Source of the DNA: Methanoculleus horonobensis
GTDB lineage: Archaea; Halobacteriota; Methanomicrobia; Methanomicrobiales; Methanoculleaceae
Direction: 5' to 3'
Length of the DNA stretch: 64,000 nucleotides
Assembly (NCBI RefSeq): GCF_001602375.1
Contig: NZ_BCNY01000015.1
Coordinates: 372,001 to 436,000 of the forward strand
In this document: piece by piece, positions 11,486-62,589 of the stretch
Numbering within the stretch: position 1 is the stretch's first letter
Layout: each line of letters starts with the position of its first letter
Made by a program: the position numbers and the translations under genes
Notes under the pieces: model-generated
Told to the model about the DNA's origin: nothing
The model's database searches: none
What the model saw: only the letters and a program-made list of their open reading frames with translations

Positions 11486-11514
11486 AATTTGAGAAAACGC
11501 GAAACTTTTCGATG

Positions 11515-11910
11515 GCGACGGGCCGAAGGGCCGGAGCGCGAGCACCGCCAGGTGTGAGGGGCGACGGGCCGAAGGGCCGGAGCGCGAGCACCGCCAGGTG
11601 TGAGGGGCGACGGGCCGAAGGGCCGGAGCGCGAGCACCGCCAGGTGTGAGGGGCGACGGGCCGAAGGGCCGGAGCGCGAGCACCGCCAGGTGTGAGGGGC
11701 GACGGGCCGAAGGGCCGGAGCGCGAGCACCGCCAGGTGTGAGGGGCGACGGGCCGAAGGGCCGGAGCGCGAGCACCGCCAGGTGTGAGGGGCGACGGGCC
11801 GAAGGGCCGGAGCGCGAGCACCGCCAGGTGTGAGGGGCGACGGGCCGAAGGGCCGGAGCGCGAGCACCGCCAGGTGTGAGGGGCGACGGGCCGAAGGGCC
11901 GGAGCGCGAG
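11515..11910. repeat. 46-bp tandem repeat array, eight full copies plus a partial ninth
   Basis: The unit begins GCGACGGGCCGAAGGGCCGG and is 46 bp long. Copies follow with no spacer at 11515, 11561, 11607, 11653, 11699, 11745, 11791 and 11837; a 28-bp partial copy covers 11883-11910. The copies appear identical. The unit contains GGCC-GAAG-GGCC, which can fold as a short stem. Since 46 is not a multiple of 3, all frames cycle through one 46-residue pattern, producing long but spurious open frames. The following 50 bp hold a diverged echo (GGAGCGCGAGCACTGTC). Confidence 0.95.
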
Positions 11911-29963: not shown

Positions 29964-30740
29964 GTGACCCGTGATGAAGAGCATGATCAGTTCGACCGCA
30001 AGATCGAGGCGATGGGCGTCAGGATAAAAGACGCCAACACCGTGAAGGTACGGGAGGATGTCTTCGACGAGGTCACCCTGATGGCCCTCTACAAGCTCGT
30101 CCAGAAGAAACTGATCTCGGTCATCGGCGGGCCTATCAGCACGGGAAAAGAGGCAAACGTCTTCTACGGCGAGCGTGACGGACAGGGGCTTGCCATCAAG
30201 ATCTACCGCATCCAGACCGCGAACTTCAAGGCGATGAACGATTACCTGGCGGGGGATCGCCGGTTCTCGAGCGTCCGGGGAACGCGCAAGGCTCTCATCT
30301 TCGCCTGGACGAAGAAAGAGTACAGCAACCTCGCCCGGGCGCACGAAGCGGGGATTCCGGCCCCCGAACCGTTTGCGTTCGACCGGAACATCCTCTTAAT
30401 GGAGTTCCTGGGCGAGGACGAGGTGCCGTATCCGCAGCTCCGGAACGCCGAGGTCGAGGATTACGGAGCGGTATACCGCGATATCCTCGGCTACGTGGAG
30501 CGGCTCTACCGGGAGGCACGCCTGGTTCACGCCGACCTCTCCGAATACAATATCCTCTACCACGAGAAACCATACCTGATCGATATGGGACAGGCGGTCA
30601 CCCTGGATCACCCACGGGCGTCGGCGTTTCTGGTCCGGGATATCAAGAACCTCAATCGATATTTCTCCCGCTACTGCGACGTGGTCGACGAGCAGGAGAT
30701 CATCGGAACGCTCGTCGGCACCGGACGCCGGGAGCCCTGA
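29964..30740 (+). CDS. rio1: RIO1-type serine/threonine protein kinase
   Basis: A 258-residue protein from GTG 29964, preceded by AGGTGATC. The RIO P-loop is STGKEANVFYGERDG, the Lys is in LAIKIYRI, the catalytic loop is VHADLSEYNILYH, and the metal-binding loop is LIDMGQAV. RIO1 ATPase/kinase acts in maturation of the small ribosomal subunit. The next gene encodes a Dim2-like KH protein, a ribosome-assembly partner in this arrangement. Confidence 0.94.
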   Translation: MTRDEEHDQFDRKIEAMGVRIKDANTVKVREDVFDEVTLMALYKLVQKKLISVIGGPISTGKEANVFYGERDGQGLAIKIYRIQTANFKAMNDYLAGDRRFSSVRGTRKALIFAWTKKEYSNLARAHEAGIPAPEPFAFDRNILLMEFLGEDEVPYPQLRNAEVEDYGAVYRDILGYVERLYREARLVHADLSEYNILYHEKPYLIDMGQAVTLDHPRASAFLVRDIKNLNRYFSRYCDVVDEQEIIGTLVGTGRREP

Positions 30741-30763
30741 CCACCGGAAGGAGGGATGCAACC

Positions 30764-31306
30764 ATGACCATACAGGAGATGAAAGTTTCAACAGCGAGGA
30801 TCGGTGTACTCATCGGGAAGAGCGGGTCCACGAAGCGCGAGATCGAGGAGAAGACCGGGATAACCCTCCGGATCGACAGCGAGGAAGGGCTTGTGACGCT
30901 CGAAGGAGAGGACCCCGTCGGCGTCATGACGGCGACAAACGTCGTCTCCGCGATCAACCGGGGGTTCTCGCCGGAGCGTGCGCTCCGGCTCCTCGACGAC
31001 GAGGACATGATGCTCGACATCCTCGATCTCGCCGACCTCTCGGGGACGACCCGGCAGCTCGAACGGCTCCGGGGGCGGATCATCGGGAAGGCGGGCACCT
31101 CCCGCGCCCAGATCGAGGATATGACCACCACGGAGATCTCGGTCCAGGGCAAGACCGTCGCGATCATCGGTCTCCCCGACCAGGTCGAGACCGCGAGGAA
31201 GGCGGTGGAGATGCTGATCCAGGGCGTGCCGCACGAGCATGTCTACGGATTCCTCGACCGGAAGAAGAAGGAAGCCAAGCAGGCGATGCTGGAGTACTAC
31301 TCGTGA
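30764..31306 (+). CDS. KH-domain RNA-binding protein (Dim2/Pno1-like)
   Basis: A 180-residue protein with two KH domains: VLIGKSGSTKREIEEKTG (GxxG loop GKSG) near residues 15-33, and GRIIGKAGTSRAQIEDMTTTEI (GKAG) near 104-125. The C-terminal HEHVYGFLDRKKKEAKQ is typical of the archaeal Dim2p homologue. It binds 16S rRNA near the 3' end during subunit assembly, together with RIO kinases. Shine-Dalgarno GGAGGG precedes the ATG. Confidence 0.93.
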   Translation: MTIQEMKVSTARIGVLIGKSGSTKREIEEKTGITLRIDSEEGLVTLEGEDPVGVMTATNVVSAINRGFSPERALRLLDDEDMMLDILDLADLSGTTRQLERLRGRIIGKAGTSRAQIEDMTTTEISVQGKTVAIIGLPDQVETARKAVEMLIQGVPHEHVYGFLDRKKKEAKQAMLEYYS

Positions 31307-31382
31307 TGCGGCAGGGCCGGACCGACCCTGCCCATGACGATACGGAAGATATGCGGTTTGCAGTGGAAATGAAGGGGTACAC

Positions 31383-33521
31383 ATGGAGATAGCCGGCCTC
31401 CCCGTCCCGCCGGATCTTGCCCGGCGCTACATCGACGGCGGGATCACGGAACTCTACCCGCCGCAGGCCGCCTGCGTCGAAGCGGGCCTTTTTTCGGGAA
31501 AGAACCTTCTCGTCGCCATCCCCACGGCGAGCGGCAAGACCCTGGTCGCCGAGATGGCGATGCATCACCAGGTGGGGAAGGGCGGTAAGTGCCTCTACAT
31601 CGTTCCTTTGCGGGCGCTCGCGAGCGAGAAGTTCGAGGAGTTCTCCGGAAAGGGTCTCCGCGTCGGGATCGCCACCGGCGACTTCGATCGAAGGGACGAG
31701 TATCTGGGAAGAAACGACATCATCGTCGCGACGAGCGAGAAGGTGGACTCACTCCTGCGGAACCGGACGCCGTGGCTCTCGGAGATCAGCCTGCTCGTCG
31801 TCGACGAGGTTCACCTGATCGACGATCCGTCGAGGGGAGCGACGGTCGAGATGGTGATTGCGAAACTCCGGCACAAGAACCCCGAGATGCAGATCATCGC
31901 TCTCTCGGCGACCATCGGCAACCCCGCCGACCTCGCCGGATGGCTGGACGCCGAACTCGTCGAGAGCGAGTGGCGCCCGGTCGACCTCCGCGAGGGGGTC
32001 TTCTTCGAGGACGGCATCCGGTTTGCCGACAGCACCCGGGAGGTCGAGCGAAAGAGCAAGTACGAGGACCTGGATCTCGTCCTCGATACGGTCGCGGAGG
32101 GCGGCCAGTGCCTGGTCTTCGTCAGTTCCCGCAAAAACGCCGAGGCGTTCGCGAAACGCGCGGCATCCGGCCTGAAACTTGCAAACCCCGCTCTCGCCGG
32201 CTACGCCGATAGGATACGGTCGAGCGCCTCGACCGATATGGGGAAGATCCTCGCCGCCTGCGTCGCGCAGGGGGCGGCATTCCACCACGCGGGGCTCTCG
32301 CGGGAGGAGCGCCAGATCGTCGAAGCCGGATTCCGTGAGGGGCAGATCAAGGCCATCTCCTCTACCCCGACGCTTGCCGCCGGCCTGAACCTCCCCGCCA
32401 GGCGGGTGATCGTCCGCGACTACCTCCGGTTCAACGCCGGGGAGGGGATGGTGCCGATCCCGGTCCGGGAGTACCGGCAGATGGCCGGGCGAGCCGGGCG
32501 ACCGCGGCTCGACCCCTACGGCGAGGCCGTCCTGATCGCGAAGTCCGAGGAGATGGTCGACGAGCTCTTCGACTACTACATCGAGGCGGCGGCAGAAGAT
32601 GTCCGGAGCCGGTGCGCGGACGAGGCAGTCCTCTGCACCCATATCCTCTCGCTCATCGCGACCGGCTTCGCCCGCGAGACGGGCGAGGTGCTCGGGTTCA
32701 TGGACGGGACGTTCTACGCCCACCAGGGCGAGAGCCCGCGTGCGCTGAAACGGGCGGTCGACCGGGTGCTCGAGTTCCTGCGGGAGAGCGAGATGATCAC
32801 CGAGGTGGGGGAGTGGCTCGAGACGACCGAGTACGGGTCGCTCGTCTCCCGGCTCTACATCGATCCCCGGAGCGCCGAGGTGATCGTGAACGCACTGACG
32901 CGCCAGAAGGACTACACCGATATCGGCTTCCTCCACCTCCTCTGCGCGACGCCGGATATGCCGACGCTCTTTGTGCGCAAAAACGATATGTATGCCCTCG
33001 ACCGATTCCTCGCCGACCACCGGGACGAACTCTGGATGGAGATCCCCTGGGACGCGGGCGAGGAGTTCGACCGCAGCCTCAAGACGGCGCTCCTCCTTGC
33101 CGACTGGGCGGACGAGGTGGGCGAAGACGTGATCTGCGAGCGCTACAGTGTCGGGCCGGGCGACGTCTACGGGATGGTGGAGAGCGTGGCCTGGCTGGTT
33201 CACGCGAGCCGGCACCTCGCCGGACTCTTTGCCCCGCACCTCAAGGCCCCGATCGAGGAGATGGAACTCCGGACGAAGCACGGTATCAAGAAGGAACTCC
33301 TGCCGCTCATCAGGATCCGCGGGATCGGCCGGGTCAGAGCCCGCCGGCTCTTCAACAACGGTATCGACTCGATCGAGGCGCTCCGGGAGGCAGGATCCGA
33401 GAAGGTCGGCAAGATCCTCGGGCAGGGAATCGCCACCCAGATCTTCGAGCAGCTCGATGGTGTCCGGGACGAGATCGGGGGTGCCGCCGAGGAGCAGTCG
33501 ACCCTCTTCCGGTTCGGGTGA
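31383..33521 (+). CDS. hel308: Hel308 (Hjm) superfamily 2 DNA helicase
   Basis: A 712-residue protein. Motif I is [14 protein letters not shown] (Walker A about 47-53), motif II is VVDEVHLI, motif III is LSATIGNP, and motif VI is [11 protein letters not shown]. The C-terminal helical ratchet and HhH-like [19 protein letters not shown] segment are present. Hel308 unwinds lagging-strand forks 3'-5' and restarts stalled forks. Cgi121 follows directly (start codon adjacent to the stop). Confidence 0.95.
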
Positions 33522-34049
33522 ATGAATATGACAGAGATACCCTGCGATATCTACCGGGCGGCTTTCACGGTCGATGACAACGCCGCTTTCCTCACAGAGA
33601 TCCGAACGATCGCCGACGAGTTTGAGACCCACATCATCCTCTTCGACGCCGACCGCCTGACCGGACGGGATCACGTCGAGGCGGCGCTCCGGCACGCCCG
33701 GAGGTCCTGGGCCGGCGGTGAAGCGATCGCGAACTCACTTGAGATGGAGGCCCTCCTCTACGCTGCGGGAACCCGGCAGTGCCAGGTGGCCTCGTCGTTC
33801 GGGATTCACCCGGGCGAGAACCGGTCGTTTGTCGCCGTCTGCCCGCCGGCGCCCGGCGTCCGGGACCAGCTGGCGGGTCTCGTGAGGATCGTCAGCGATG
33901 AAGAGGATGGGGAAGAGATCGATCCCGCAAAAAGGGCGCGTCTTGCCGACCTCTTCTCGATCACCCCCGAGGAGGTTGCCGTGGTCGGCGAGGAGCGGTT
34001 CCGCGAACTCGTCCTCGAGCGGGTGGCGCTCCTCGACGTCTACCGCTGA
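33522..34049 (+). CDS. cgi121: KEOPS complex subunit Cgi121
   Basis: A 175-residue protein with HIILFDADRLTGRDHVEAALRHA, SLEMEALLYAAGTRQC and FGIHPGENRSFVAV, matching Cgi121/TPRKB. It is a regulatory subunit of KEOPS, which makes N6-threonylcarbamoyl-adenosine on tRNA; Cgi121 recruits the tRNA 3' end. It follows hel308 with no gap; ATG 33528 is an alternative start. Its last 10 bp overlap the convergent moaB-like gene. Confidence 0.9.
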   Translation: MNMTEIPCDIYRAAFTVDDNAAFLTEIRTIADEFETHIILFDADRLTGRDHVEAALRHARRSWAGGEAIANSLEMEALLYAAGTRQCQVASSFGIHPGENRSFVAVCPPAPGVRDQLAGLVRIVSDEEDGEEIDPAKRARLADLFSITPEEVAVVGEERFRELVLERVALLDVYR

Positions 34050-34537
34050 CCGGCCCCGGCGTGGCTGAGGATGTGCCGGATCTCGGGGATGATGATCTCT
34101 TTTGCGGCCAGGGTGACCGCCTTCGTCGAGCCCGGGATACAGAAGACCGCCCGGCCGCCGACGACCCCGGCGATCGCCCGCGAGAGGATCGCGGACGTCC
34201 CGATCTCGTCGTAGCTCTTCAGCCGAAAGAGTTCCCCGAACCCGTCGATCGTCTTTTCAAGGAGCGGTGCGACTGCTTCGATGGTCACGTCGTCGGCAGT
34301 GAGCCCGGTGCCCCCGGTAACGATGACGCAGTTTGCACGCGAAAGCGCTGTGCGAACCTCGGAGCGGATCCGCTCCTGGTCGTCGGGGATGACGCCATAA
34401 TGGGTCACCTCGATCTCCGCGGCCGAGAGGAGGTCGATGAGCGTCTTTCCGCTGGTGTCGGTCTCGGGTTTCCGAGTCGAGGAGACGGTGATGACGGCAC
34501 CGGTTACGGTGAGCGGTTTAAGATGACTGCTGTCCAT
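34040..34537 (-). CDS. moaB: Molybdenum cofactor biosynthesis protein MoaB/MogA family
   Basis: A 165-residue protein: AVITVSSTRKPETDTSGKTLIDLL, VIVTGGTGLTADDVTIEAVAPLLEK, GFGELFR, and IPGSTKAVTLAAKEIIIPE. These are the molybdopterin-binding motifs (GGTG, PGxP-like PGST). It adenylates molybdopterin. Methanogens need this for the Mo/W-bis(molybdopterin guanine dinucleotide) of formyl-methanofuran and formate dehydrogenases. It is transcribed away from the origin region. Confidence 0.93.
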   Translation of the reverse strand: MDSSHLKPLTVTGAVITVSSTRKPETDTSGKTLIDLLSAAEIEVTHYGVIPDDQERIRSEVRTALSRANCVIVTGGTGLTADDVTIEAVAPLLEKTIDGFGELFRLKSYDEIGTSAILSRAIAGVVGGRAVFCIPGSTKAVTLAAKEIIIPEIRHILSHAGAGQR

Positions 34538-34608
34538 AGGATCTTCCAGTACCCCTGTACCATGTATTTTACTTCATTCTATCTCCTGTTTTCAAGAGTT
34601 CGATCCCC

Positions 34609-34631
34609 GACCCCTTTGTTTCCCATGGAGA
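34609..34631 (-). promoter_or_regulatory. ORB-like origin recognition box (left, inverted)
   Basis: Read on the minus strand the site is CTCCATGGGAAACAAAGGGG followed by TC and a G-string (GGGG) three bases on. It matches the archaeal ORB core TCCA-TGGAAAC-AAGGGG with one change. Orientation is opposite to the two right-hand boxes, as in flanked origins. Confidence 0.75.
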
Positions 34632-34811
34632 AATGAAGGGCGCTGCAGGCCAGGAGACGGAGAGGACAGAGAGGATGGGAGCTGGAATACAGGATTTCCG
34701 AAGAGGATCAGAACCGGAACACAGGATTTCCAGAGAGGAAATCCGTTTATCAGGAAGATTCGATGAGATCGCTCTCAGAGGACAGGTGGGCAGGATGGAT
34801 CGAGGTGAACC

Positions 34812-35145
34812 GGATCAGGGCGAAACCAGGTGAGTCGGATCAGAGCGAAACCGGGTGAATCGGGTCAGGATGGAACGTACCAGGACAGGATTCGAGAGAG
34901 ATGAAGATGAGATAAGTCGGATCAGGGCGAAACCAGGCGAATCAGGGCAGATGAAACGTAATTGGACGGGAGTTGAGAGAGATGAAGGTGAGATGAGCCG
35001 GATCAGGGCGAAACCGGGTGAATCAGGTCAGATGAAACGTACCAGGACGGGATTCGAGAGAGATGAAACGTACCAGGACGGGATTCGAGAGAGATGAAAC
35101 GTACCAGGACGGGATTCGAGAGAGATGAAACGTACCAGGACGGAT
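34812..35145. repeat. Origin-internal tandem repeats (about 81 bp and 31 bp units)
   Basis: An imperfect 81-82 bp unit beginning GGATCAGGGCGAAACC recurs at 34837, 34919 and 35000, with an extra partial start at 34812. It runs into a nearly exact 31-bp unit starting ACCAGGACGGGATTCGAGAG at 35041, 35072, 35103 and (partial) 35134. The two are nested: the 31-bp unit is part of the longer one. Purine-rich on the plus strand. Open frames through it are low-complexity and unsupported. Confidence 0.9.
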
Positions 35146-35556
35146 CTGGAGGGAGAAGAACCGGGATGGGACGAGGGGAAGCTGGGATGGATGAGGTGAG
35201 GTGACATGGATTGGAACAGTGATCGGGCAGAAATATGACTGGATCTCTGGCCAGCTGACCCGTTCCAGGGCTTCTGTTCTCATGTTCCAGAACTTTCTCT
35301 TCTCGTTATGCTCCTACTACGTATTTTCCATTAAACTGCTTATTACCGGTTATTTCAAAAATAATTGTTTCTTGACCCTTATTTCCGGTTTTTCCCTGCT
35401 TTTAGCCTTTTATTTCCCGTTTAATCCCTTAAAATCAGCTTTTAATCCGTTTTATCCCTTTTTCCCTGTTTTTTGTTTCTTTGTTACTATACGATATATC
35501 TTTATATCTTAAGTTTCAGAGGTACACATGACTATCGTCATCAGTTTTTGAGTGAG

Positions 35557-35575
35557 CGATACACCCGGTGTATCG
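35557..35575. promoter_or_regulatory. Palindrome beside the middle ORB
   Basis: Perfect arms CGATACAC (35557-35564) and GTGTATCG (35568-35575) around CCG lie 8 bp before the ORB at 35583. The right arm continues into TATCGTCATCAG, which is a direct repeat of the same 12 bases at 35533-35544. It may be an additional binding site within the origin or a regulatory site. Confidence 0.55.
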
Positions 35576-35582
35576 TCATCAG

Positions 35583-35605
35583 GTTCCACTCGAAACAAAG
35601 GGGTC
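35583..35605 (+). promoter_or_regulatory. ORB-like origin recognition box (middle)
   Basis: GTTCCACTCGAAACAAAGGG plus GTC, followed by GGGG at 35606-35609. It matches the ORB core with one change (TCGAAAC for TGGAAAC). It lies just right of the AT-rich tract. Confidence 0.8.
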
Positions 35606-35699
35606 GGGGTGATCCCCATCAACTCCCCCGATCCCTCTCCCCTGGACTTCCCTCAACCTGACCGGTTCATCGGGATCTCCCGGCGATACAGCCTCCGGA

Positions 35700-35722
35700 G
35701 TTCCACTGGAAACGAAGGGGTT
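35700..35722 (+). promoter_or_regulatory. ORB-like origin recognition box (right, best match)
   Basis: GTTCCACTGGAAACGAAGGG plus GTT is an essentially perfect ORB core (TTCCACTGGAAAC followed by GAAGGGGT). It lies 99 bp upstream of the orc1/cdc6 ATG, so Orc1 bound here could also autoregulate its gene. Confidence 0.88.
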
Positions 35723-35798
35723 ATCTGTCCCTAAAACGATCATATTAAGAGACCTCGACGCGAAAATTTCGTGTCCTGCCTCCCTCCCCGGTGACATC

Positions 35799-37082
35799 AT
35801 GTCGGACGATAAAACGAGCCCAATGGGATTATTTAAAAAATACCTGACCAATAGACGTATATTCAAGAATAGGGAAGTCCTCCGGCACAACTATCGTCCC
35901 CAGATCCTTCCTCACCGGAAGCCCCAGATCGACGAACTTGCCTCTATTCTCGCACCCGCTCTCACAAACGAGACTCCCTCAAACATCCTCATCTACGGCA
36001 AGACGGGAACCGGGAAGACGGCGTCTGTCCGGTACGTGGGAACGGAACTCGAGAACGCAAGCGCCCTCGCCGGGACGAAGTGCACGATCGTTCACCTCAA
36101 CTGCGAAGTGATCGACACCCAGTACCGGGTTCTCGCCCAGATCGCGAACGGTCTCGACAACGCCGACGAGCACCCGAGCGACAGCACGAGGAACCACATC
36201 CCCATGACCGGGTGGCCGACCGATCAGGTCTACATGGAGCTCAAGAACCAGCTCGAGAGCAACGGCGGGGTCATGGTCATCATCCTCGACGAGATCGACA
36301 AACTCGTGAAGAAGAGCGGCGACGACACCCTCTACAACCTCACCCGGATCAACTCCGACCTCAAGTTCGCAAAGGTGAGCATCATCGGGATCTCGAACGA
36401 TCTCCGGTTCACCGACTTCCTGGATCCCCGTGTCCTCTCTTCGCTCTCTGAAGAGGAGATCGTCTTCCCCCCTTATAACGCCCCGCAGCTCTGCGACATC
36501 CTCCAGCAGAGAGCAGAGATGGCGTTCGTCGACGGCGCGCTCGACGAGACGGTCATCCCGCTCTGTGCGGCGCTCGCGGCCCAGGAGCACGGCGACGCAC
36601 GGCGGGCGCTCGACCTGTTCCGGGTATCGGGCGAACTCGCGGACCGCGAGAACGCCGCGGGTGTGACCGAGAAGCACGTCCGGATGGCTCAGGAGAAGAT
36701 CGAGACCGACAGCATGGTCGAGTGCATCTCCACCCTCCCGACCCAGAGCAAGGCGGTCCTCTACGCGATGCTGATTCTCGAGCAGATGGGCAAGAGGATC
36801 TTCACGAGCGGCGAGGTCACGGTGGTCTACCGCGAGATCGCCCGGATCATCGACCTCGACGTCCTGACGCACCGCCGGATCACCGACCTCATCTCCGAAC
36901 TCAACATGCTCGGCGTCATCAACACCCGGGTCATCTCGCGGGGCCGCTACGGCCGGACGAAGGAGATGTGGTTCGACGCAACGACGAGCAAGATCGAGGA
37001 GGTCGTCACGCGCGATCCGAGGCTCGACGACGCGAGGCTCAAGAAACTCGACATCAACCGACTGAGAGCAATGTTCAGGTGA
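35799..37082 (+). CDS. orc1: Orc1/Cdc6 replication initiator
   Basis: A 427-residue AAA+ protein. Walker A is YGKTGTGKT (about 66-74), Walker B is VIILDEIDKL, sensor 1 is IIGISND, sensor 2 is HGDARRALDLF. The C-terminal winged helix (about 320-427) includes SGEVTVVYREIARIIDLD and the beta-wing RYGRTKEMWFD. It binds ORB elements and loads MCM. It sits next to an ORB-flanked AT-rich region, the usual place for an archaeal initiator. The ATG follows a GGTGACATC Shine-Dalgarno-like sequence. Confidence 0.96.
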   Translation: MSDDKTSPMGLFKKYLTNRRIFKNREVLRHNYRPQILPHRKPQIDELASILAPALTNETPSNILIYGKTGTGKTASVRYVGTELENASALAGTKCTIVHLNCEVIDTQYRVLAQIANGLDNADEHPSDSTRNHIPMTGWPTDQVYMELKNQLESNGGVMVIILDEIDKLVKKSGDDTLYNLTRINSDLKFAKVSIIGISNDLRFTDFLDPRVLSSLSEEEIVFPPYNAPQLCDILQQRAEMAFVDGALDETVIPLCAALAAQEHGDARRALDLFRVSGELADRENAAGVTEKHVRMAQEKIETDSMVECISTLPTQSKAVLYAMLILEQMGKRIFTSGEVTVVYREIARIIDLDVLTHRRITDLISELNMLGVINTRVISRGRYGRTKEMWFDATTSKIEEVVTRDPRLDDARLKKLDINRLRAMFR

Positions 37083-37086
37083 AGTT

Positions 37087-37578
37087 ATGGACGAAAAGGA
37101 TCGTATCCTCCTCCATCTCCTGGAGGAGAACTGCCGCACCCCGACAGAAGAACTTGCGGTGCTGGCCGAGATGAGCGAAGAGGACGTAAGAGACCGAATC
37201 GGCCGGCTGGAAACTTCAGGCGCCATCCGTCGCTACGGGGCGGTCGTCGACTGGGAGGGGGCCGGCGACGGAAACGTCGTCGCGGTGCTCGAACTCAAAG
37301 TCTCGCCCGAGCGGGACTTCGGCTACGACCGGATCGCCGAGCGGATCACCCGGTTCCCGCAGGTCCGGTCGCTCCGCCTGATGACCGGCGCGTACGACCT
37401 TCAGCTCCTGGTCACCGGGCCGAGCATGCACGAGATCGCGCGGTTCGTCTCCGAACAGATCGCCCCGATGGACAGGATCCGGGAGACGGCGACGCACATC
37501 ATCATGAAGACCTACAAGGAGAACGGCACCACCTTCGCCGAGCGCGAAGAGGTCGAGCGGCTCCCCTACTCGTTCTGA
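37087..37578 (+). CDS. Lrp/AsnC-family transcriptional regulator
   Basis: A 163-residue protein. An N-terminal HTH (DEKDRILLHLLEENCRTPTEELAVLAEMSEEDVRDRIGRLETSGAI) is followed by a RAM-like ligand/oligomerisation domain with LMTGAYDLQLLVTGPSM. Feast/famine regulators of this kind respond to amino acids. It is 4 bp downstream of orc1 and 1 bp upstream of an aminotransferase gene, so it may regulate that enzyme. Confidence 0.9.
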   Translation: MDEKDRILLHLLEENCRTPTEELAVLAEMSEEDVRDRIGRLETSGAIRRYGAVVDWEGAGDGNVVAVLELKVSPERDFGYDRIAERITRFPQVRSLRLMTGAYDLQLLVTGPSMHEIARFVSEQIAPMDRIRETATHIIMKTYKENGTTFAEREEVERLPYSF

Positions 37579-37579
37579 G

Positions 37580-38749
37580 GTGAGACGTTTGAGGGATTTC
37601 GTCTCGAAACGGGCCCGCGCCATACCACCCTCGGGTATCCGGAAGTTCTTCGATCTCGCCCAGACGATGGAAGATGTCATATCCCTGGGCGTCGGGGAAC
37701 CGGACTTCGTGACTCCCTGGTGCGTCTGCGAGGCGTCCATCTACTCCATCGAGCAGGGATCGACCGCCTACACCTCGAACAAGGGGACGCCGCAGCTCCG
37801 GGACGCCATCAGCCGCTACCTCGATACCCGGTTCTCCACCCGGTACGATCCCGAGGCGGAGATCATCGTCACCTGCGGCGTCTCGGAGGCGGCTGATATC
37901 GCCATCCGGGCCGTCGCCGACCCCGGTGACGATATCCTGGTCGCCGAACCCTGCTACGTCTCCTACAGCCCCTGTGTCTCCCTTGCCGGAGGAACCCCGG
38001 TGCCCGTCCTCTGCCGGGCGGAGGACGAGTTCCGGCTGACGGGCGACGCGCTTGCGGAGAGCATCACCCCGCGGACGAAGGCGCTGATTGCAAACTTCCC
38101 GAACAACCCCACCGGCGGGGTGATGGAGGAGGCGGACTGGCACGCGATCGCCGATCTCCTCGTCGACCATGACCTCCTCCTCATCAGCGACGAGGTCTAC
38201 GCCGAGCTCACCTACGACGGCGACCACTTCTCCCCGGCAAGGATCCCGGAACTTCGCGACCGGACGATCACCTTGAACGGGTTCTCGAAGGCCTTTGCCA
38301 TGACCGGGTGGCGGATCGGCTACCTCTGCGCCCCGCCCGAGATCACCGCGGCGGCGTTGAAGATTCACCAGTACGTCGCGCTCTGCGCTCCCGTCATGGG
38401 GCAGATCGCGGCATACGAGGCACTCCGAAACGGGGAGGCCGAGAAGGATGCGATGGTCAGGGAGTACCGTCTCCGGCGCAACCTCTTCGTCGACGGGCTG
38501 AACAAGCTCGGTCTTGCCTGCCACGTCCCGAAGGGTGCGTTCTATGCCTTCCCGTCGGTGGAGAGCACCGGGATGACCGATGTCGAGTTCGCGGAGGGGC
38601 TCCTCCGGGAGCAGCACGTCGCGGTGGTTCCGGGGAGCGCTCTCGGCCCCTCCGGCGCCGGGCACGTGCGGTGCGCCTACGCCGTCTCGCGCGACGATCT
38701 CAAGGAGGCGCTCTCCCGGATGGGAGCCTTCCTGGAATCGTTAAAATAA
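37580..38749 (+). CDS. Class I/II pyridoxal-phosphate aminotransferase
   Basis: About 389 residues. SLGVGEPDF at the start, NFPNNPTGGVM, ISDEVYAELTYDG and the PLP-lysine region LNGFSKAFAMTGWRIGY are those of fold-type I aspartate-type aminotransferases. The substrate (aromatic, alanine or aspartate) cannot be decided. The gene follows an Lrp-type regulator. GTG 37580 is the longest start; TTG 37589 has GAGGTGA (37577-37583) in better spacing and may be used. Confidence 0.9.
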   Translation: MRRLRDFVSKRARAIPPSGIRKFFDLAQTMEDVISLGVGEPDFVTPWCVCEASIYSIEQGSTAYTSNKGTPQLRDAISRYLDTRFSTRYDPEAEIIVTCGVSEAADIAIRAVADPGDDILVAEPCYVSYSPCVSLAGGTPVPVLCRAEDEFRLTGDALAESITPRTKALIANFPNNPTGGVMEEADWHAIADLLVDHDLLLISDEVYAELTYDGDHFSPARIPELRDRTITLNGFSKAFAMTGWRIGYLCAPPEITAAALKIHQYVALCAPVMGQIAAYEALRNGEAEKDAMVREYRLRRNLFVDGLNKLGLACHVPKGAFYAFPSVESTGMTDVEFAEGLLREQHVAVVPGSALGPSGAGHVRCAYAVSRDDLKEALSRMGAFLESLK

Positions 38750-39372
38750 AAATACCTCCATAAATATCTTCAAACGGAAATCGAAACTCTTTTATGAGAG
38801 ATCCCTGCCCGGGCAACCGATAGTTTGGTGTCCGACAGAGGAATGACGGGTGGAGAACCCCATTACTTCCACTGGAGATGTGGATTTATTCGGGGATTTT
38901 GGCCGGTCGGGATCGCGTCGCGCCTGTATCGGTCATACATACTCTATCCTCAAAACCCTGACCGGATCTTCGGGTTCACACCCGTGCTCCGGTGGAACGA
39001 TCTGGCTACAGATCGGCATCCCGCTCCGGAGGAAAAACCCGGTGTGTCAGCCGGTAATGCTTCTAGGACGGAAATTCCACTGGAAACAAAGGGGTCAAGA
39101 TCCCGACGGTGATCGTACCGGGGGTGACCCGCAGGAGTCCGGGTTGATCTACACCTTCCGCTGTCGCCGGAAATAGGAGGATAGGCGAATATCGGGGTGC
39201 GGCGCCCTGCCCGGCGGGGATGTCTCCTGCGCCTCTTCCCGGGCGCGGAACGGTGGAGCGGGGGATGCAGGTGTTGCTGAAACCCGGTTGCCTTTATACG
39301 GGGTGGCCGTTCTCCCGGTATCACATTGTAACGTTTATCAGGATGTATCGCTCCATCCTACTTGATAGAACA
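38750..39372. other. Intergenic region upstream of purA containing an ORB-like box
   Basis: No supported protein gene. The notable element is the ORB-like box at 39074-39096. Two degenerate relatives may exist at 38871-38880 (TTCCACTGGA) and 38991-38999 (CCGGTGGAA). The last 60 bp before purA hold AT-rich sequence (CACATTGTAACGTTTATCAGG) that is likely the purA promoter. Confidence 0.55.
39074..39096 (+). promoter_or_regulatory. ORB-like box upstream of purA
   Basis: ATTCCACTGGAAACAAAGGG plus GTC is a full match to the ORB core, about 3.4 kb from the best box at the origin and beyond the orc1-aminotransferase genes. It may belong to an extended origin or act as a reservoir site for Orc1. Confidence 0.8.
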
Positions 39373-40383
39373 ATGAGTTGTACTATTATCGTCGGCGGGT
39401 TCTTTGGTGACGAGGGAAAAGGAAAGATCGTGGCCCATATCGCTCACCAGGACAGACCATCCATCATCTCCCGGGGCGGCGTCGGCCCGAACGCTGGGCA
39501 TACCGTCCTCATTGGAGAGAAGGAATACGGGGTTCGGATGGTTCCCTCAGGGTTCGTCTACCCGGAAGCGCGCCTCATGATCGGGAGCGGCGTGCTCGTC
39601 GATCCTCGTGTCTTTCTGCGGGAAGTCGACCTGGTCGGCGTCCGGGACAGGATCTTTGTTGATGGACGGTGCGGTGTCATCGAAGAGGATCACATCGCGC
39701 GGGACAAGGGAAGCGATCACCTCAGCAAGAAGATCGGGAGCACCGGAACCGGGTGCGGCCCGGCAAACGCGGATCGTGTTCTCCGGACGTCGCGGCAGGC
39801 GAAGGACGTCCCGGAGCTCGCGGGTTTCATCACCGACGTGGCCGAGGACGTCAACTCTGCTCTCGATAACGACGAGGTGGTTCTCCTCGAAGGAACCCAG
39901 GGTTTCGGGATCTCGCTCTACTTCGGAACCTACCCGTTCGTGACGAGCAAGGATACCTCCGCCTCGCAGATCGCCGCCGACAACGGCGTCGGTCCGACCA
40001 GGGTCGACGACGTCATCGTCGTCTTCAAGGCCTACCCGACCCGGGTCGGCGAAGGCCCCTTCTCCACCGAGATGTCGTCGGCGCGGTCGCACGAGCTCGG
40101 GATCGAGGAGTTCGGCACCGTCACCCATCGCCAGCGCCGCATCGGCACCTGGGACGGGAAGATGGCGCGCTACTCGGCGATGATCAACGGCTGCACCCAG
40201 GCGGCGATCACCGGTATCGACCGGATCGACCCGGCCTGTTTCGGCGCGACGGAGTACGATCAGCTGACGAAGGCGGCACGGGACTTCATCGCGCAGGCCG
40301 AAAAAGACATCGGCAAACCCGTCACCCTGATCTCGACGGGTCCCGAGATGTCCCAGATCATCGATCTTCGGAGCGAACTATGA
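39373..40383 (+). CDS. purA: Adenylosuccinate synthetase
   Basis: A 336-residue protein from ATG 39373. GTP-binding GDEGKGKIVAHIA and the IMP-binding region RGGVGPNAGHTV are clear, followed by STGTGCGPANADRV. It converts IMP and aspartate to adenylosuccinate using GTP. It is about 90 residues shorter than bacterial PurA, as in other short archaeal forms. Its stop overlaps the start of the Trm112-like gene by 4 bp. Confidence 0.95.
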   Translation: MSCTIIVGGFFGDEGKGKIVAHIAHQDRPSIISRGGVGPNAGHTVLIGEKEYGVRMVPSGFVYPEARLMIGSGVLVDPRVFLREVDLVGVRDRIFVDGRCGVIEEDHIARDKGSDHLSKKIGSTGTGCGPANADRVLRTSRQAKDVPELAGFITDVAEDVNSALDNDEVVLLEGTQGFGISLYFGTYPFVTSKDTSASQIAADNGVGPTRVDDVIVVFKAYPTRVGEGPFSTEMSSARSHELGIEEFGTVTHRQRRIGTWDGKMARYSAMINGCTQAAITGIDRIDPACFGATEYDQLTKAARDFIAQAEKDIGKPVTLISTGPEMSQIIDLRSEL

Positions 40384-62543: not shown

Positions 62544-62569
62544 ATTATACATGATCGATCATGTATAAT
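62544..62569. promoter_or_regulatory. Acs operator site 2 (26-bp perfect palindrome)
   Basis: A perfect 26-bp palindrome with centre ATCGAT. Arms begin ATTATACATGATC on both strands; the core CATGATCGATCATG lies at 62550-62563. It is at or just after the predicted transcription start of acs. Confidence 0.8.
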
Positions 62570-62571
62570 TT

Positions 62572-62589
62572 TACATGATCAATAATGTA
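62572..62589. promoter_or_regulatory. Acs operator site 3 (imperfect)
   Basis: TACATGATCAATAATGTA has the same core with one arm mismatch (CATGATCAATAATG at 62574-62587). Its centre is 24 bp from site 2, about two helical turns, so both may be bound on one face. Confidence 0.6.

Follow-up and report, generated by a model that had tools for sequence, protein, structure and literature searches.

The window (G000:C15:372001-436000), 64 kb from an archaeal draft genome of 2.45 Mb, carries on its plus strand an orc1/cdc6 initiator gene of the Orc1-1 type (35799..37082; NF001625, E=1.5e-181). The encoded protein matches the Orc1/Cdc6 profiles NF001625/TIGR02928, has Cdc6 homolog 1 (PDB 2qby_A) as its nearest solved structure, and shares 99% identity with the protein of M. 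sediminis S3Fa and 89-98% with those of other Methanoculleus. To the left of orc1 lie hel308 (start codon at 31383), a gene for a Cgi121-like KEOPS subunit (33522) and, on the minus strand, a MoaB-like gene (34040-34537); to the right are found a gene for an Lrp/AsnC regulator (lrp, 37087), an aminotransferase gene (37580) and, at about 39374, a gene to which the name purA was assigned from sequence. The genome encodes two further Orc1/Cdc6 paralogues. The third Orc1/Cdc6 homologue is located at G000:C11:153880-154923, and the surrounding 18 kb searched (L121) contained no match to the ORB pattern.

ORB boxes around orc1

Six conserved boxes, B1 to B6, span 7.7 kb around orc1. The pattern TTCCACTGGAAACNAAGGGG, allowing at most 3 mismatches, matched 5 times in the window where 0.03 matches were expected, which excludes chance as the source of the boxes. 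Across the 2.45-Mb genome a relaxed pattern (≤2 mismatches) gave 6 matches, five of them around the orc1 gene of the window, and the reversed control pattern gave none at the same threshold. Close matches number about four per genome in 35 Methanoculleus congeners, and nearly all are found no more than about 8 kb from orc1; the reversed control had zero matches in these genomes. The loci are conserved in position as well, with B1 present in 19/20, B2 in 25/25, B3 in 30/31, B4 in 32/32, B5 in 23/26 and B6 in 23/25 of the congeners, and the reversed control was absent from every one of the six conserved intervals. Beyond the genus, the layout of B2, AT-rich tract, B3, B4 and orc1 recurs in Methanoregula, Methanolinea and other Methanomicrobiales.

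The core contains two mutually inverted boxes, B2 (CTCCATGGGAAACAAAGGGG, 34611-34630, minus strand) and B3 (TTCCACTCGAAACAAAGGGG, 35584-35603, plus strand), followed by B4 (TTCCACTGGAAACGAAGGGG, 35701-35720, plus strand). An earlier sequence-only reading had placed three boxes at 34609 (minus), 35583 and 35700 (both plus), which is correct to 1-2 nt; all three are real, but they are only half of the six local boxes, B1, B5 and B6 having been missed. Its claim that they share the ORB core TTCCACTGGAAAC was slightly generous, since the core is exact at 35701 only and B2 departs from it by 3 mismatches (one against the relaxed pattern). The facing arrangement over about 950 bp was confirmed, the spacing being 955 bp and 25 nt of the inverted arms showing 88% complementarity, and orc1 indeed starts to the right, 78 bp past the last box (77 in that reading). 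B4 keeps a position of -97 to -100 relative to the start of orc1 in all 32 congeners and lies immediately upstream of an orc1-proximal TATA-like sequence, ATATTAAG.

Between B2 and B3, a pyrimidine/T-rich, AT-rich stretch of the plus strand (35240..35516) is a candidate duplex-unwinding element. It includes the low-GC tract reported earlier (35291-35516), which at 31.4% GC, against 64% for the window, is the lowest 226-bp segment of the 64 kb; the next-lowest such segment has 46.5%. The low-GC minimum adjoins B3 in the congeners regardless of how far away B2 lies, so that the core is constant in B3 and the AT tract and unconstrained in its distance from B2. The rest of the gap (34640..35236, plus strand) is a purine-rich spacer (70% A+G) with tandem repeats of 25, 31, 32 and 81 bp. 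Repeats within the origin, as previously described, do exist, but they are lineage-specific: their sequence differs between species, and the purine bias is what these have in common. No other purine-to-pyrimidine drop in the window is more than half as large as the one at 35239. The plus-strand switch from purine-rich to pyrimidine-rich over 34640-35500 is kept in most Methanoculleus, whereas the underlying sequence is not.

Several Methanoregulaceae and a single Methanoculleus (L062) have a compact gap of about 217 bp between B2 and B3; in most Methanoculleus it measures 325-970 bp, and the long gaps consist of species-specific purine-rich sequence, often repeated, and then a pyrimidine-rich stretch. 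The tandem repeats are lineage-specific filler, by which an ORB-ORB spacing of 217 bp seems to have been expanded to almost 1 kb, and we infer that the short spacing is the ancestral state. A function of the repeats as iterons was considered and rejected, because the repeats are not the same from species to species and the compact relatives have hardly any spacer.

A second element next to B3: TATA-like box and inverted repeat

Abutting B3 on the plus strand is an element (35500..35583) that the sequence-only reading had overlooked. It comprises a TATA-like box (CTTTATATCTT, at 35500), two copies of the half-site TATCGTCATCA, termed c1 (35533) and c3 (35571, ending next to B3), and a hairpin-capable inverted repeat with arms GCGATACAC/GTGTATCGT, the right arm of which continues into c3. 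The arm sequence varies between species while self-complementarity is maintained. With the shuffle figures for the stem and for c1/c3 read as descriptive values and not as formal probabilities, since the sequences are related, the best stem beats mononucleotide shuffles (p<0.05) in 27 of 30 Methanoculleus sequences and in 9 of 24 from other genera, mostly in a similar place and with unrelated arm sequences, and c1 and c3 co-vary within genomes (0/5000 shuffles). The effect was milder when RNA folds were compared with dinucleotide shuffles (mean z-scores -1.7 and -1.0). Between 4 and 11 nt separate the two arms, a variability more in keeping with a hairpin than with a rigid dimer operator.

The full element has no second copy in its own genome. 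A half-site regulon was dismissed: the full element is single-copy, and half-site near-matches (≤1 mismatch) are scattered, at 10 against 1 for the reversed control. A short leader peptide, MTIVISF*, could be read from an ATG after the TATA-like box, but its start and stop are lost in relatives while the half-site and the stem complementarity are kept, and coding was rejected on these grounds. Rfam gave zero matches to known RNAs across 30500-39800, and a scan for bacterial promoters and terminators, which does not model archaeal promoters, stayed at background level.

Sulfolobus provides a precedent for non-ORB elements in archaeal origins: its ucm motif is essential and is recognised by UBP (PMC12141716). 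The TATA-like box and inverted repeat are probably a second class of cis-element, either protein-binding or a promoter element, and may play a part like that of ucm, although action as an RNA or as extruded DNA is also conceivable; the element described here is genome-unique and lies at one ORB, whereas UBP of Sulfolobus has hundreds of sites. A further likeness is offered by oriC1 of Haloarcula hispanica, in which inverted ORBs also enclose an inverted repeat (PMC3936714). In the haloarchaeal repeat, which is G-rich, each of the two ORBs has one arm next to it. The Methanoculleus repeat, in which both arms adjoin B3 and are not G-rich, is therefore not of the H. hispanica enhancer kind. The chances that the inverted repeat influences initiation or orc1 expression seem to us about even.

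Satellite boxes

Three of the boxes lie outside the core. B1 is an ORB-like box (TTGCAGTGGAAATGAAGGGG, 31358..31377, plus strand) with 2 mismatches to the relaxed pattern, which ends 5 bp ahead of the hel308 start codon and keeps this position at hel308 in the congeners that have it; it is graded as probable only, because its GGGGT also occupies the Shine-Dalgarno position of hel308. B5 (CTCCAGTGGAAGTAATGGGG, 38858..38877, minus strand) is degenerate in this genome, with 4 mismatches; in relatives it reads CTCCAGTGGAAATAAAGGGG, and its 23 conserved copies have at most 2 mismatches. A block of about 40 bp around B5 (38857-38895) is nearly invariant genus-wide, which exceeds the needs of the ORB itself. 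B6 (TTCCACTGGAAACAAAGGGG, 39075..39094, plus strand), upstream of purA, has 0 mismatches, and in the alignment its conservation reaches little past the box.

Binding of Orc1 to the satellite boxes is quite likely. B5 and B6, and also B1, are most likely additional Orc1 sites that would tune the amount of free Orc1 or aid assembly of the complex. The satellites could instead have been conserved for reasons outside replication, B1 as the hel308 Shine-Dalgarno sequence and the others as part of a leader or small RNA before purA, in which case the origin itself would stand. The GGGGT of B1 and the position of B5 inside a longer conserved block agree with such a role. However, B1, B5 and B6 all match the 20-nt ORB including its G-string, with 0 control matches, an Rfam match is absent, and B6 is hardly conserved outside the box, so we consider this explanation rather unlikely.

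H. hispanica provides a model for extra sites, as it also has additional ORBs downstream of cdc6 at oriC2; this ORB-rich region after oriC2-cdc6E represses oriC2, probably by titration of Cdc6E (PMC3936714). That region, oriC2D, contains 11 ORBs directly after cdc6E, whereas in Methanoculleus one or two boxes are found some 1.8-2 kb past the orc1 stop. Instead of a dense array of 3-11 ORBs there is only a pair, B5 and B6, separated from orc1 by lrp and the aminotransferase gene. With fewer boxes at a greater distance, the satellites may be a functional analogue of oriC2D but do not belong to that class.

B5 and B6 might also form a second working ORB pair, giving a double origin around orc1. 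Like B2 and B3 they are a minus and a plus box, their start-to-start distance of 214-243 bp in most congeners resembles the roughly 238 bp of compact B2/B3 pairs, and the 226-bp segment that contains B5 ranks second in AT content in the window. Yet the AT-rich stretch lies beside the pair and not between its boxes, B5 has decayed in the genome of the window, the second box is also on the minus strand in other genera, and the downstream ORB region of H. hispanica has no origin activity (PMC3936714). A double origin is accordingly improbable, and extra Orc1 sites remain the preferred reading of B5 and B6.

A solitary box, B7 (CTCCAGTGGAAATCAAGGGGTT, G000:C14:85540-85561; L120:7541), recurs in most congeners. 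It is intergenic, after a SET-domain gene, and is followed by a conserved imperfect palindrome, ATCGTAGAGATTCTCTCGAT. In four genomes B7 and oriC were seen to share a contig, and there they are 540-630 kb apart; an orc1 paralogue lies 2-8 kb away from B7 in every case in which the stretch examined includes that gene.

GC skew and assignment of the origin

GC skew, which the sequence-only reading had proposed as a check on its origin, was sampled in 20-kb stretches from three complete genomes (G006, G003 and G001; 15-33% of each). The cumulative minimum of G006 falls at the chromosome start/end, which is where orc1 is located (469 bp), within the 60-kb sampling step. In tests of the difference between arms that treat stretches as independent, the skew changes sign at orc1 in G006 (p=0.0017; best rotation 1% of the chromosome away) and in G003 (p=0.0013; best rotation 5% away). 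The check gave a sign switch in two genomes; G001, with 21 samples, showed no signal and was uninformative. Coding-strand bias around orc1 in G006 was not significant.

These data also bear on the idea that the boxes mainly mark a transcriptional regulon of Orc1 (orc1, hel308, purA), with replication starting elsewhere, for example at an orc1 paralogue. The placement of B4 immediately ahead of the TATA-like box of orc1, of B1 against the hel308 start codon and of B6 upstream of purA, together with the existence of two paralogues, is compatible with it. B2 and B3, however, lie on either side of the window's AT-richest tract and are not positioned as operators, the skew switches sign at the orc1 of the window in two genomes, and it is still rising through the paralogue/B7 region; we regard this idea as very improbable. 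A second origin at orc2/B7 was rejected, as there is a single ORB only and neither G006 nor G003 has a skew minimum there.

We conclude, with a probability of about 0.92, that this locus serves a Methanoculleus species as its chromosomal oriC and belongs to the archaeal oriC1/Orc1-1 type. The earlier origin prediction is supported by boxes that are near-exclusive to the locus in 35 congeners and conserved in position; resting on positions, conservation, near-exclusivity, composition and the skew of two of the three genomes sampled, the assignment is a strong inference. The locus has several ORBs with the G-string, at least two of them inverted, an AT-rich region (31% GC) between the inverted ORBs, and an adjacent orc1/cdc6 gene of the Orc1-1 type. 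An oriC1-type origin is the expected standard archaeal type, to which the satellite boxes and the inverted repeat are additions. It need not be the sole origin, because the genome encodes two more Orc1/Cdc6 paralogues.

Functional precedents for this reading exist (PMC4010727, PMC3936714, PMC12141716). Orc1 from the adjacent gene would bind B2 and B3 across the AT-rich core, and also B4 at its own promoter, where it probably could regulate its own gene. By comparison with Sulfolobus and Pyrococcus, bound Orc1 would direct MCM loading onto the AT-rich tract beside B3, from which two forks would depart. A close parallel is Sulfolobus oriC1 (ORB2/ORB3-DUE-ucm, Orc1-1), in which inverted ORBs likewise enclose an AT-rich tract, a gene of the Orc1-1 type is adjacent and the core includes a further conserved motif that is not an ORB (PMC12141716). 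It differs in that the whole Sulfolobus ORB3-DUE-ORB2 arrangement takes up about 130 bp, against an ORB spacing of 953 bp here, and that the Methanoculleus locus has satellite ORBs up to 4 kb away. Pyrococcus oriC, a single origin upstream of cdc6, has been mapped experimentally, whereas the Methanoculleus locus is predicted and has an expanded core and satellite boxes.

According to a 2014 review, methanogen origins other than that of Methanothermobacter were without experimental mapping (PMC3984812), and the literature searched here yielded no paper on a Methanoculleus origin. The present result is a precise comparative origin map for a biogas-relevant genus, in which discrete conserved elements are named (satellite ORBs B1, B5, B6 and B7; the inverted repeat at B3), and it bears on whether archaea beyond the haloarchaea regulate initiation through extra initiator sites. 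Speculatively, Methanomicrobiales origins might combine a second cis module next to the right-hand ORB, made up of a promoter-like TATA box and a hairpin with a matching direct half-site, the hairpin being conserved in structure and divergent in sequence, with fixed satellite ORBs, one of them solitary near an orc1 paralogue, and control initiation through a co-evolving factor or an origin transcript.

Two other tandem repeats were observed in the window. At 11514-11910, in GC-rich sequence, a 46-bp unit is repeated in 8.6 copies with zero mismatches, a perfect array that looks like a recent amplification, and at 62544-62589 there is a short AT-rich tandem repeat of palindromic character (ATTATACATGATCAATAATGTATA, 1.9 copies).
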